Origin: Paraflavitalea pollutisoli
Lineage (GTDB): Bacteria; Bacteroidota; Bacteroidia; Chitinophagales; Chitinophagaceae
Direction of reading: 5' to 3'
Length of the DNA: 64,000 bases
Assembly (NCBI RefSeq): GCF_029360705.1
Contig: NZ_JARKMX010000008.1
Span: 2,410,202-2,474,201, forward strand
Each line of letters starts with the position of its first letter. Positions within the stretch are counted from its first letter, which is position 1. Under the pieces are notes generated by a model. It was not told where the DNA came from. It was given only the letters and a program-made list of their open reading frames with translations, and searched no databases. This document shows positions 33,142 through 44,668 of the stretch, piece by piece. A program made the translations under genes and the position numbers.

Positions 33142-33762
33142 TTAGATCTTATCGATCCGGATCCAATCCATGCCAGCTGCTTCCGCTGCCTGCACGCCAG
33201 GATCGCCGTCTTCAAACACCAGGCACCGGGTAGGTTCTACCGACAACTGCCGGGCAGCTGCCAGGAACGGATCGGCATAGGGCTTGCCCCTTGGCGTTTC
33301 ACCGGCACAGACCAATACCTCTACCAGCTGGCTGATGCCCAGCAAACGTAAGGTTTTGGACACCGCTGCCCGCGTACCACCCGATACGACGCCAATACGC
33401 ACTTTACCTACATGTTGCCGCAGGTGCTCCACCACAAATTCAATAGGCTGGGTTTCGTTGATAAAAGAACTTTCGTACAACGTATTCTTCTGTTGGGTAA
33501 ATACGGCCGGATCGAAATCGGCGCCATACCTTTTCTTGATCTCCTGCGTCACCGCCAGGATCGGCCAGCCGGCCAGTTCGTCGATCAGCGCGGCATCCAG
33601 CTCAAAACCATACATCTTGGCTACCGCCTGGTACGACAGTTTGTGTGCACCCATATTATCGGCCAGCGTACCATCGCAATCGTACAGGAAAGCGTCGTAC
33701 TCACCGGTACTCTGCTGCGTCAGTAAAGCCAGTTTATCAGCCATCGTTGTTGAATCATTCAT
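33142..33762 (-). CDS. HAD-superfamily sugar-phosphatase/phosphoglucomutase-like protein
   Basis: The 206-residue protein shows all HAD motifs: YDCDGTLADN with nucleophile D28 and acid/base D30, VVSGG, the Lys of RGKPYADP, and VFEDGDPGVQAA with the metal-binding acids. A helical cap between motifs I and II places it in subfamily I, near beta-phosphoglucomutase and YqaB. It starts 10 bases after the PAP2 gene and so looks like the last gene of the sphingolipid/inositol-lipid operon. A role in dephosphorylating an inositol or lipid head-group intermediate is possible but unproven. Confidence 0.85.
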   Translation of the reverse strand: MNDSTTMADKLALLTQQSTGEYDAFLYDCDGTLADNMGAHKLSYQAVAKMYGFELDAALIDELAGWPILAVTQEIKKRYGADFDPAVFTQQKNTLYESSFINETQPIEFVVEHLRQHVGKVRIGVVSGGTRAAVSKTLRLLGISQLVEVLVCAGETPRGKPYADPFLAAARQLSVEPTRCLVFEDGDPGVQAAEAAGMDWIRIDKI

Positions 33763-33772
33763 AAGGTAGTCG

Positions 33773-34708
33773 TTACTTTATTTTTTGCAAAAATGAGTCA
33801 TAGAACCGGGAAAACCATCCTGCTTTCGACACGCCCCGCTCTACCAGCCCGATACCTGTCAACGCACAAACAATGCCCGCCAGTACATCCAGAATATAAT
33901 GATGGCTGGTATACACCGCAGCACTCCAGATGCCCACCATCACCACGGCAAACAACACCGGCAGGTAGCGGTAACCCGCCTTGATACCATAGTACAAAAC
34001 CACCACCGGATACGCCGAGTGCAAAGAAGGCATGGCCGCAAACACATTCGATCCCTTGGCATACAACGACTGGAAGATAGTGCCGCCTACCAATTCATCA
34101 AAGCGCAGCAGACCGGCTGTATTACCGGGCGTAGACGCGATAAATTCAAACCCATGCTCCTGCACATACCAGGGTGGTGCGGCCGGGTAAATATAATAGA
34201 TGACAAAGCCTACCAGGTTCACCACGAAGAAGGCCAGGGCAAAACGCAGGAAAACCGGACGCTTGCGAAAGAACAGGTAGCCCGCAAACAGCAACGGTAC
34301 CGGCACCCAGCAGAGATAAAAGATACCGCTCACCAGGTCGCCCACGGTACTATGGTGCTGCAGAAAAAACTCATTGGGCGTCACGACACCCGTCGCTGTC
34401 GAAATGCCGAAAATAGCTTTCTCGGCTTCATACAATTGCTGTATATGTACAGGACGATAAGCATAATTGGGGAAGGCCTTCATGTAATCGTAAATGATCC
34501 AGTACACCATAAAAATGGAAAACCCGGTGATGAATTTCCGGGTAATGGCTGAACCATAATATAGACCATTGAAGATGGCGATCAGCACCAACTGATCGGT
34601 TTTGAACCCAACCAATACGATCGACAACAGCAGGTACAAGATAGACACCAGCGTAGTGATCAGCAGGGTACGCGGCGCAAAAAATACAGCAGGGGCAGTT
34701 TTCAGCAT
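33773..34708 (-). CDS. PAP2-superfamily membrane enzyme, likely inositol phosphorylceramide synthase
   Basis: ATG 34708 (MLKTAPAVFFAPRTLLITTLVS) starts 1 base after the upstream stop; a longer frame would overlap that gene. The 311-residue protein has about six membrane helices and the two PAP2 histidine motifs, AAMPSLHSAYPVVV and YTSHHYILDVLAG, in the arrangement of Aur1/IPC synthases (SLHS...HxxxD). Such enzymes transfer phosphoinositol from phosphatidylinositol to ceramide. The genes for making both substrates lie upstream in the same operon, matching the order of functions known for the Bacteroides inositol lipid cluster. Confidence 0.85.
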   Translation of the reverse strand: MLKTAPAVFFAPRTLLITTLVSILYLLLSIVLVGFKTDQLVLIAIFNGLYYGSAITRKFITGFSIFMVYWIIYDYMKAFPNYAYRPVHIQQLYEAEKAIFGISTATGVVTPNEFFLQHHSTVGDLVSGIFYLCWVPVPLLFAGYLFFRKRPVFLRFALAFFVVNLVGFVIYYIYPAAPPWYVQEHGFEFIASTPGNTAGLLRFDELVGGTIFQSLYAKGSNVFAAMPSLHSAYPVVVLYYGIKAGYRYLPVLFAVVMVGIWSAAVYTSHHYILDVLAGIVCALTGIGLVERGVSKAGWFSRFYDSFLQKIK

Positions 34709-42342: not shown

Positions 42343-43460
42343 AACGGCTTTTCGTAAATGCGATAGCGCTTGTATACTTTACCGTTCATATCCAGAATGC
42401 CTTTATTCATCAGGTCATTATGCTCCAGTATCCAGCTGCATTCGCCGCCCTGCATACCACGTGCCGTTGCCCGGCGAATAATGCCCGCATAGAAACAGGC
42501 TTCGATACCCAGCTTCCGGTATTCCTGCTTTACACCCAGCGCCAGCACGCGTACGCGGCTGATGCGCTTCATGCCAAACAGCAATTTGAAAATACCTGTG
42601 GGCAACAAGCGACCCCGCTTCACTTTGATGAGCACCTCATTAATATCGGGAATCGCCAGGGCAAATCCGATCTGCTCACCATTGTGCTCGGCGATGAGGC
42701 AAAACTCCTCATCCAGCACCATCTTCAGGTCTTTGGCGAGGTAGTTGAATTCGTTGTCGGTCATGGGCACAAAACCAAGGTTCTGGTCCCAGGCCGCATT
42801 GTATACTTCCTTTACCTGCCGCGCTTCATTGACCAGGTCTTTTTTACGGACCGGCCTTATGGTGATCTGCTTTTGCTGCAGGCGCCTGCGCAGGGCACCT
42901 TCCAGCCTCACCGGTCGGTCACCTACCTCGGCCAGGTCAATGTCATACGCCAGCAAGTCTACTTTCTTCTGCATCGCCACCGCTTCCAGCAACGCCGGAT
43001 AATAGGCCTTGTTGTACACCATCATCGCCTGCGCCGGCTTATCGAAACCATCCACCAGCAAACCACAGGGTTCATTGGTAGAAGGATTGACGGGCCCTAT
43101 GATCGTAGTAGCACCATGTTCCTGCAGCCACACCTCGGCAGTCCCAAATAAAGTAGCCGCGATCTGCACATCATCGACACACTCGAAGAAACCAAAGAAG
43201 CCGTCGGTCGTATTATTGAATTGATTATGGTTATTATTTAAGATAGCAGCAATCCGCCCACTGATCACCGAATCCTTGTAATACAGGAACAACTGCAGTT
43301 TGGAGTGTTCATGAAAAGGATGTTTGCCCGGCGTCAGCAAGTCACGTTGCGCAATGAACAGCTCCGGTACATAGTTGGCATCGTCCGCATACAGGTCATG
43401 GGGAAAGTCGATGAACGCTTTCAATTGCTTTTTATCGCGGACTGTTACGATGCCCGTCAT
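42339..43460 (-). CDS. GNAT-fold acyltransferase, candidate bacterial ceramide synthase
   Basis: The 373-residue protein shows [24 protein letters not shown] and [14 protein letters not shown] in the first half and a GNAT-like second half ([75 protein letters not shown]). This long GNAT-like type corresponds to bacterial ceramide synthase (bCerS), which N-acylates 3-ketosphinganine. It overlaps the serine palmitoyltransferase stop (ATGA) and the next gene by four bases, so the three core ceramide genes are translationally coupled. Confidence 0.85.
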
Positions 43461-44668
43461 GCGCTTTCCTTTTTAAGTTCGAGGGAAATACCCAGTTCGA
43501 GGGCTGTCTCTTTCATCTTGTCCACCACTTCTTCGATCTGGTTGAAGGAGTGCGTCGCCATCAGCGACAGGCGGATCAACGATGACTCGGACGGAACGGC
43601 CGGAGATACCACGGGGTTCACGAATACCCCCTTATCCTGCAGGGCTTTCGTAAACAGGAAGGTCTTATGGTTATCACCAATACGCACCGGTATGATCGGG
43701 CTTTGAGTATCACCGGTATGGAAACCCTGCTCTTTGAGCAGGTACAACATATGATGGGTATTGTCCCACAATTTCTGGATACGCTCCGGCTCTTCTTCAA
43801 TGATGTCGAGCGCAGCGATCACACTGGCCGTAGAGGCTGGCGTCATGCTCGCACTGAAGATCAGGGCGCGGGCCTTGTGCTTGAGGTAATCGATCACCCC
43901 CCGATCGCCGGCCACGAAACCACCCAGCGAAGCGAGTGATTTGCTGAAGGTTCCCATGATGAGATCGGTTTCTTTGGTCAGTCCGAAGTGCGACGCCGTG
44001 CCTGCTCCCTGCTCTCCGATCACGCCCAGTCCATGGGCATCATCCACCATCACCGCCGCACCATAACGGTCGGCCAGGTCGACGATCGACGGCAGCAGGG
44101 CGATATCACCTTCCATACTGAATATGCCGTCTGTAACGATCAGCTTGAAAGCATCAGCCGGCAGGTTCTGTAACTTCTGCTCCAGGTCGCGCATATCGTT
44201 GTGGCGATACTTGATCACCCGGGAGAAAGACAGCCGGCTGCCATCTATGATAGAAGCATGATCGTATTCGTCGAGCAGCAATACATCGGCACGGCCTGCC
44301 AGGGCCGACAATACGCCCAGGTTGGCCTGAAAGCCCGTACTGAACAATACGGCATCTTCTTTACCGGTATAGGCTGCCAGCCTGCTCTCCAGCTCTACAT
44401 GCAGATCGAGCGTTCCGTTGAGGAAACGCGAACCGGCACAGCCACTGCCATACTTCTCTATTGCACGGCTTGCTGCCGCTGCGATACGCGGGTGGTTGGT
44501 AAGGCCCAGGTATGAGTTGGAACCAAACATCAACACACGACGACCATTGAGCACAACCTCGGTTTCCTGTCCCGATTCGATCACCCGGAAATAGGGATAT
44601 ACCTGCTGCTCTCTGATCAGATCCGCGTCCTTGAATTGGGAAATCTTTTGGTGTAGTATATTACGCAT
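43457..44668 (-). CDS. spt: serine palmitoyltransferase
   Basis: The 403-residue alpha-oxoamine synthase carries H137 in [10 protein letters not shown]209 and H212 in [10 protein letters not shown], and the PLP lysine K243 in [13 protein letters not shown]. These match the catalytic set of Sphingomonas serine palmitoyltransferase with a constant offset of 22 residues. It condenses serine with an acyl-CoA or acyl-ACP to 3-ketosphinganine, the first step of sphingolipid synthesis. It is the first gene of an operon of about twelve genes. The related enzymes KBL and BioF are less likely given the adjacent ceramide genes. Confidence 0.9.

Follow-up and report, generated by a model that had tools for sequence, protein, structure and literature searches.

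A likely one-operon route to inositol phosphorylceramide in Paraflavitalea pollutisoli and related Bacteroidota

It was in gut Bacteroides that the steps by which bacteria make inositol phosphorylceramide (IPC) were elucidated, and there the genes for serine palmitoyltransferase (SPT) and the reductase are separate from each other and from the inositol cluster: in B. thetaiotaomicron the SPT gene BT_0870 is described as separate from the inositol cluster BT_1522-1526 (PMC9246714), and the reductase gene BT_0972 as not clustered with that of SPT (PMC9278070). Can the whole route be held in a single transcription unit? The question is raised by a stretch of 64,000 nucleotides (the window) from the 8.76 Mb genome of Paraflavitalea pollutisoli (contig NZ_JARKMX010000008.1). 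A first-pass annotation, made from this DNA alone, had proposed such a unit and had contrasted it with the separate ceramide and inositol loci of Bacteroides, a contrast borne out by these two papers (PMC9246714, PMC9278070). Our analysis of the sequence indicates that the locus is very likely one operon for IPC biosynthesis, and that its product would probably be a hydroxylated IPC. The whole predicted route to a fungus-like lipid would then lie in one clonable stretch of ~11.5 kb, likely with its own regulator.

Twelve open reading frames are present on the minus strand between positions 33142 and 44668, each overlapping the next or lying less than 30 bp from it. From SPT to the last gene, for a HAD hydrolase, the successive distances are -4, -4, -10, -4, -4, +3, -11, -4, +22, -83 and +10 bp. 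Three larger overlaps arise because the choice of starts was mechanical; with internal ATG starts for myo-inositol-phosphate synthase (MIPS, 41323), phosphatidylinositol phosphate (PIP) synthase (PIPS, 36605) and IPC synthase (IPCS, 34708) they become gaps of 26, 16 and 1 bp. This is the packing that the first-pass annotation had described, and the gene families it had named were found again in Pfam or NCBIfam, except for the GNAT-type ceramide synthase (CerS), which has no match at E ≤ 0.001 in either library. Its reading of the genes as an IPC pathway in a single operon gains support from family models, from homologues of solved structure and from conserved synteny.

SPT (43457..44668; all coordinates here and below are on the minus strand) scores 693 bits on the NCBIfam equivalog NF047600, above the cut-off of 640, and in the PDB it matches solved SPT (3a2b/8guh) at 560 bits and the cysteate acyltransferase 28eh at 241 bits. 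The candidate MIPS (40001..41323; PF07994, E 7.2e-102) is the sole match in the genome and has a solved homologue, 7nwr, at 561 bits. A PgpA-type phosphatase (39558..40004; PF04608, E 2.7e-36) would act as the PIP phosphatase, the role of BT_1525, and a CDP-alcohol phosphatidyltransferase (35901..36605) as PIPS of the BT_1523 type: it exceeds the cut-off of the BT1523 equivalog NF052561 (400 versus 350 bits), and its motif DMLDGQVAR...GALYDSVLD fits DX2DGX2AR...GX3DX3D, the PIP synthase motif used by Heaver et al. (PMC9246714). A PAP2-type protein (33773..34708), the candidate IPCS in the role of BT_1522, matches the yeast AUR1 structure 9vj3 (E 7e-18). The roles of BT_1522, 1523, 1525 and 1526 are described as tested by Bacteroides knockouts (PMC9246714, PMC8791184).

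Between SPT and MIPS lie two genes that would complete the ceramide part. For the putative CerS (42339..43460), GNAT matches in the PDB were weak (best E 0.033), too weak to prove a GNAT fold by that search. Homologues of CerS were found in 45 records of a plasmid collection, 44 of which cover at least 80% of its length, with identities of 35-40% in the 20 of the 45 records that were listed. One of them, annotated GNAT, sits between aminotransferase-type and epimerase-type genes in Streptomyces, and another lies near LptF/LptG-type genes in Roseomonas, in a setting that resembles the one reported for Caulobacter CC_1154. Other near full-length homologues, at ~35-36% identity, come from E. coli, where one record bears the annotation YghO, and from Pseudomonas, as a YghO-type protein. 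A Streptomyces plasmid (L251:3769-8295) carries a row of aminotransferase-type, GNAT, epimerase and condensation-domain genes, the layout of the SPT-CerS-CerR triad outside Bacteroidota. The following gene, CerR (41350..42342; PF01370, E 4.7e-28), encodes an epimerase-type short-chain dehydrogenase/reductase, putatively a ceramide or ketosphinganine reductase, and a dehydrogenase of this type takes third place, after SPT and CerS, in each of the 58 full runs defined below. A hydrophobicity scan, the one search made for such a feature, found no transmembrane-like segment in CerR; the Caulobacter CerR is reported to be periplasmic (PMC11087976/PMC11324152).

The Scs7/FA2H-like hydroxylase (34710..35336, 208 aa; PF04116, E 1.6e-18) is, by profile comparison, a homologue of yeast Scs7. 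Its profile matches 4zr1 (E 2.6e-44) and 4zr0 (E 5.1e-44) over up to 187 positions, and the 12 His that are invariant across 18 aligned sequences line up in the printed match. From this match, with its aligned His, addition of a 2-hydroxyl to the ceramide N-acyl chain is predicted. In the route that we propose, SPT would join serine and an acyl thioester, CerS and CerR would convert the product to dihydroceramide, and the Scs7-like enzyme may 2-hydroxylate its N-acyl chain, while an AraC-type regulator encoded upstream would act at a tandem repeat before SPT, as co-conservation of the two suggests. More tentatively, GtrA, DUF4833 and the DUF5686 barrel might move the finished lipid toward the outer membrane. 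The operon predicts a specific chemistry that can be checked, a 2-hydroxylated IPC.

The comparison with other Chitinophagaceae that the first-pass annotation had proposed was made on two collections, and it finds the merged operon again in the window's family and beyond. Set A, from a search with CerS, takes the 80 best of 485 confirmed loci, some of them short, with taxonomic orders taken from NCBI names; set B consists of 124 stretches from surveyed genomes, the window included. Some genomes appear in both sets. We counted as a full run nine core genes (SPT, CerS, CerR, MIPS, PgpA, GtrA, DUF5686, PIPS and IPCS) on the same strand with gaps under 600. Full runs were found at 58 loci, 41 of the 80 in set A and 17 of the 124 in set B, and gene order was identical in every one of them apart from DUF4833 and the hydroxylase; both are present in 44, the hydroxylase only in 13, and neither in one. 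Since nine genes recur in one order at 58 loci, the cluster is not due to chance. The set-A runs comprise 23 from Chitinophagales, 11 from Cytophagales, two from Sphingobacteriales and five without an order, and all 17 set-B runs are in the window's family. For Sphingobacteriales the record is Arcticibacter (L165), because the other locus, L137, appears to be G371, of the window's family. Chitinophagales and Cytophagales both have the operon, as does at least one isolate of Sphingobacteriales. Three loci with window-family operon genes (L115, L179 and L137) are titled Beijerinckiaceae, Williamsia and Sphingobacteriales, labels that look wrong or dated.

At the level of genomes, PIPS of the BT1523 type, over its cut-off, was found in 45 of 244 window-family genomes, 25 of 395 in a class-wide draw (27 at E ≤ 1e-40) and 9 of 296 in a phylum-wide draw, where matches were mostly weak; SPT at E ≤ 1e-150 was found in 55 of the 244 and 39 of the 395. 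Within the family (Chitinophagaceae) 39 genomes have both SPT and PIPS, 16 SPT only, six PIPS only and 183 neither, a strong co-occurrence (Fisher 5.9e-26, uncorrected for relatedness), and in 26 of the 39 a single fetched stretch, no longer than 20 kb, carries the two. The one-operon layout is not peculiar to the window's genome. These counts indicate that the merged operon is common and that the split seen in Bacteroides is one of several layouts.

Several observations weigh against so tidy an account. In 13 of the 39 genomes SPT and PIPS do not share a fetched stretch; we read four of these as contig ends (G408, G431, G439, G506), four as a split genus, g141, and five as truly separate. The 34 set-B loci with SPT and PIPS hold CerS in 30, CerR in 26, MIPS in 29 and PgpA in 29, so members of the operon can be missing. 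The IPCS scores 363 bits on NF052609, under the Bacteroides equivalog cut-off of 480, and the identity of CerS is inferred from synteny and distant homologues. In family f3 none of eight PIPS loci is full, each being cut or missing at least one gene. The operon of genus g141 (L187 and L189-L191, with L055, L056, L089 and L094) is split between DUF5686 and PIPS, its halves ~14-40 kb apart on one contig. One set-B "SPT", at L095, was rejected as a false assignment (529 bits on the profile, a very long branch, and a genome, G517, outside the 55 with SPT). Its removal lowered the SPT+PIPS loci of set B from 35 to 34, and would raise the 33 PIPS loci without SPT to 34; it was also left out of the full-run and repeat counts.

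How far could the lipid differ from a 2-hydroxylated IPC? The head-group genes might mainly serve phosphatidylinositol, the ceramide and inositol genes being adjacent for historical reasons and IPC being made scarcely or not at all. Six of the 244 window-family genomes (G323, G348, G382, G433, G479 and G517) lend this some colour: in each, the fetched stretch carries a PIPS cluster together with an IPCS-like gene, and the genome has no SPT at E ≤ 1e-150; at 1e-60 the same six give weaker paralogues only, the best at 364 bits, and one of them, G433, is 81% complete. Yet an AUR1-like gene is kept in 48 of 49 set-A loci with SPT and PIPS, the two genes co-occur strongly in the family as given above, and the same enzyme set is described as making IPC in Bacteroides (PMC8791184), so that we regard this explanation as improbable. 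Still less probable is a cysteate acyltransferase as first enzyme, with a sulfonolipid derivative as product: sulfonolipids are reported in Bacteroidetes and the two enzymes are similar, as the match to 28eh shows, but the score over the NF047600 cut-off and the more than twofold higher score to solved SPT argue for serine palmitoyltransferase. A more substantial doubt concerns the hydroxylase, which could target C4 of the long-chain base, or another lipid. PF04116 covers several activities, the protein matches no NCBIfam model, and its solved matches include no long-chain-base hydroxylase for comparison. Against this stand the near full-length Scs7 match with its aligned His and the distribution of the gene, present in 40 of 41 full set-A operons and in none of the 39 set-B SPT loci without an inositol cassette (L128 of set A being an exception); we judge such a target somewhat unlikely and keep N-acyl 2-hydroxylation as the prediction.

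Compared with known systems, the inositol half resembles the B. thetaiotaomicron cluster BT_1522-1526, with BT_1521 and BT_1527, in its MIPS, PgpA-type PIP phosphatase, GtrA-like protein, PIP synthase and AUR1-like candidate IPCS, and in a carboxypeptidase-regulatory-domain neighbour. Both GtrA and a carboxypeptidase-regulatory-domain gene were known from the BT_1521-1527 neighbourhood (PMC9246714, PMC8791184), so that the additions here are SPT-CerS-CerR, DUF4833, the Scs7-like hydroxylase and HAD. The window operon is headed by the ceramide triad, whereas BT_0870 and BT_0972 are located elsewhere in B. thetaiotaomicron, and the AraC gene with its tandem repeat is likewise extra. We recognised no description of the merged operon in the open-licence PMC literature searched. 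Heaver et al. surveyed 162 Bacteroidetes species, and "Chitinophaga" is absent from the main text of their paper (PMC9246714); the available portions of PMC10865984 and PMC12724326 do not bear on gene order.

In Caulobacter crescentus (CC_1152-CC_1168) SPT, the N-acyltransferase CerS and the dehydrogenase CerR also lie close together, near transport genes; the products, however, are ceramide phosphoglycerates, the genes for transport encode LptC2/F2/G2 and a flippase, and the region is arranged in four operons and two cistrons (PMC11087976/PMC11324152). Of the same pair of papers, the one of April 2024 describes the flippases and transporters as still to be identified, and that of August 2024 indicates Lpt-like genes for transport. 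In their place the window has an Omp85-like barrel (by predicted fold), DUF4833 and GtrA, and the operon supplies Bacteroidota with transport candidates different from the Caulobacter set. With the yeast IPC pathway the window shares the AUR1-like transferase and the Scs7-like hydroxylase; the latter is without the extra N-terminal part of Scs7, which is a cytochrome b5 domain, and the other steps would be taken by bacterial enzymes.

The likely regulator is the AraC-type gene (44942..45865; Pfam HTH_18, E 6.8e-20; ATG start perhaps at 45835 or 45805), which lies 273 bp upstream of SPT on the same strand. A gene of this kind also precedes that of SPT elsewhere in Paraflavitalea and Niastella, and in a small number of further lineages. 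Between them a tandem repeat, TTTTAGACAT-N11-TTTTAGACAT (44738..44768), with a period of 21 bp, ends 69 bp before the SPT start. Paired TTTTAGACAT-like half-sites 21 bp apart are conserved in an alignment of 15 upstream regions, of which two belong to the same genome, and nearer the SPT start this alignment shows, at the 80% level, a TTTGC element (44707..44711 in the window) that we take to resemble the Bacteroidota -7 element. The pair is the sole match in the genome at up to 3 mismatches, itself with 0, and 0 were expected from shuffles of the window; a reversed control pattern also gave one genome match. Among 153 distinct SPT upstream regions scored, at least 17 of 20 positions agreed in 16 of the 17 that have the AraC gene (the exception, L092, scores 14) and in none of the 136 that do not (highest 16), and the reversed half-site control never rose above 15. 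The half-site comes from the window itself, 17 was chosen as the threshold once a first count had been seen, and the AraC-bearing rows are related, so that the association is strong but not independent evidence. A tandem site with ~21 bp spacing suits an AraC-type activator, and this gene likely regulates the operon via the repeat, a putative operator.

In Dyadobacter, Runella and Rhabdobacter (22 of the 80 set-A loci) the slot for the head-group genes is occupied by a different cassette, so that the operon looks modular. There SPT-CerS-CerR-DUF5686 is followed by an NTP transferase, a protein without Pfam match, a CDP-alcohol transferase, LPG_synthase_TM, HAD, PfkB and DUF4833. The NTP and CDP-alcohol transferases are present in all 22, LPG_synthase_TM in 21, and HAD, PfkB and DUF4833 in 20 each; the hydroxylase is found in six. 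Some of the 22 stretches end early. In two Dyadobacter/Runella examples (L158:14834-20240 and L139:14834-20294) the protein without Pfam match has 289 aa. PfkB, which replaces MIPS here, might at a guess be an inositol kinase. Heaver et al. proposed an alternative inositol cluster for B. vulgatus/Prevotella with an NTP transferase, a CDP-alcohol transferase and HAD (PMC9246714), the same families as in this slot, a likeness by family and not by protein comparison; the cassette described here differs in being merged with the ceramide genes, in its PfkB kinase and in having no MIPS in the stretch. It does not occur in the window.

In a FastTree tree of 113 SPT rows, 56 of 57 rows with the B. thetaiotaomicron-type (BT-type) cassette and all eight with the alternative one belong to a single group of 70 rows, whose support is 85 without a star (a subgroup of 67 rows has 99*), together with four rows without cassette and two short rows; the 57th BT-type row is the false L095. 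Of 14 window-family rows without cassette 13 lie outside the group, and L240 inside. Eight loci (L186, L187, L189-L194) had been labelled BT by hand on account of inositol genes, or of a contig end, within the stretch or genome, and 11 short ones were kept apart. The alternative state takes two changes on this tree, in line with two or more replacements of the head-group cassette. In genus g156, of the window's family, G472 and G311 (L184, L185) have MIPS beside the ceramide genes and three or four of the six alternative-cassette genes on the opposite strand, and G520 (L066) is of BT type. At L214 and L215 (genus g16, family f3) and L178 (Sphingobacterium alimentarium) SPT-CerS-CerR is followed by GtrA with no inositol genes in the stretch, and the SPTs of these loci nest within the operon group.

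Three genes of the operon point to the envelope: that for a GtrA-type membrane protein (39175..39561; PF04138, E 1.1e-19), BT1524-like and a possible flippase, the DUF5686 gene (36622..39171), with a CarboxypepD_reg domain by Pfam, and DUF4833 (35359..35904; PF16117, E 3.7e-45). In an AlphaFold2 model of DUF5686 (pLDDT 78.8, pTM 0.68) we see a signal-like helix, a CarboxypepD_reg region, a middle part that is beta-rich and a C-terminal run of long strands; the C-terminus is predicted, by fold alone, to be an Omp85-type (BamA/TamA/Sam50) outer-membrane barrel. Foldseek gave 128 PDB matches at E ≤ 0.001, the best to SAM (E 1.4e-8) and one to TamA at 3.8e-7; among the 50 listed, 47 are SAM, BAM/BamA or TamA by title, two are FimD and one is 5ayw ("a membrane complex"), presumably BAM. 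The TM-score reaches 0.63 by target length and at most 0.30 by query length, with a root-mean-square deviation of at least 7.5. Membership of Omp85 by sequence was considered and is unsupported: in a profile search with 38 members PF01103 is not among the 21 families listed at E ≤ 1, and hhalign against two Omp85 proteins of the same genome gave a probability of 0.45%. POTRA domains are not among its Pfam matches, the N-terminal part being CarboxypepD_reg. DUF4833 has one N-terminal hydrophobic segment, likely a signal peptide, and is otherwise mainly beta; its AlphaFold2 model (pLDDT 86.9) found no PDB fold match at E ≤ 1e-3.

Presence was counted in set B with 15 loci that have less than 8 kb downstream set apart. 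DUF5686 occurs in all 34 loci with SPT and PIPS, or all 35 if L095 is counted, in all three with SPT and the alternative cassette, 18 of 33 with PIPS and no SPT, and four of 39 with SPT and no cassette, these four all belonging to the split operon of genus g141, with MIPS-PgpA-GtrA. DUF4833 is in 20 of the 34 loci with SPT and PIPS and the hydroxylase in 33; neither occurs in any of the 39. In set A DUF5686 is present in 47 of 49 loci with SPT and PIPS and in all 22 with the alternative cassette. DUF5686 and DUF4833 therefore go mostly with the inositol cassette; the hydroxylase goes mainly with the union of cassette and ceramide genes. Two of the 49 set-A loci with SPT and PIPS, which have no DUF5686, and L128, the sole set-A locus without a cassette, which has DUF5686 and the hydroxylase, depart from this pattern. 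The idea, raised by Dyadobacter and Runella, that DUF5686 is a partner of the ceramide genes only was rejected, given its 4 of 39 cassette-less loci and its 18 of 33 PIPS loci without SPT.

It is conceivable that these proteins form a dedicated export line, in which a POTRA-less Omp85-like DUF5686 barrel, a periplasmic DUF4833 and a GtrA flippase bring the inositol sphingolipid to the outer membrane; we put this forward tentatively, as rather unlikely in its full form. Resemblance of DUF5686 to Omp85 by fold only, four DUF5686 copies in the genome and its presence in the inositol loci without SPT tell against such a line. The envelope proteins might instead serve envelope assembly or glycans tied to capsule inositol, and not be sphingolipid transporters, which we consider a serious possibility if somewhat short of an even one. 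The same SPT-less loci favour it, inositol synthesis is linked by Heaver et al. to capsule loci in B. thetaiotaomicron (PMC9246714), and GtrA-like proteins are described as required for lipid-linked glycans (PMC8791184). On the other side, DUF5686 (22/22) and DUF4833 (20/22) persist beside SPT-CerS-CerR despite the swap of head-group cassette, and a mutant of the GtrA-like BT1524 is described as low in IPC with phosphatidylinositol up (PMC8791184), whereas Heaver et al. report their BT_1524 knockout to be without a lipid phenotype (PMC9246714), so the two papers differ on this gene. If the export line does exist, it would, with its interchangeable head-group cassette, serve Bacteroidota as a general system for assembling sphingolipids in the outer membrane. 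It offers a testable idea of a sphingolipid route to the outer membrane, and the larger promise of the locus lies in this conserved set of envelope genes and in a switch that is likely its own.

Scans for consensus sigma-70 promoters (19 versus 16.7 in shuffled sequence, sd 4.1) and for terminators (22 versus 15.1, sd 4.1) stayed near the shuffled background and were set aside. The HAD hydrolase at the operon end (33142..33762; HAD_2, E 5.1e-23) was rejected as a core gene and appears to be a lineage-specific addition, found there mainly in Niastella and Paraflavitalea. It is followed after 29 bp by a DUF6965 gene (32801..33112; PF22292, E 7.6e-16), beyond the range given in the first-pass annotation and possibly co-transcribed.

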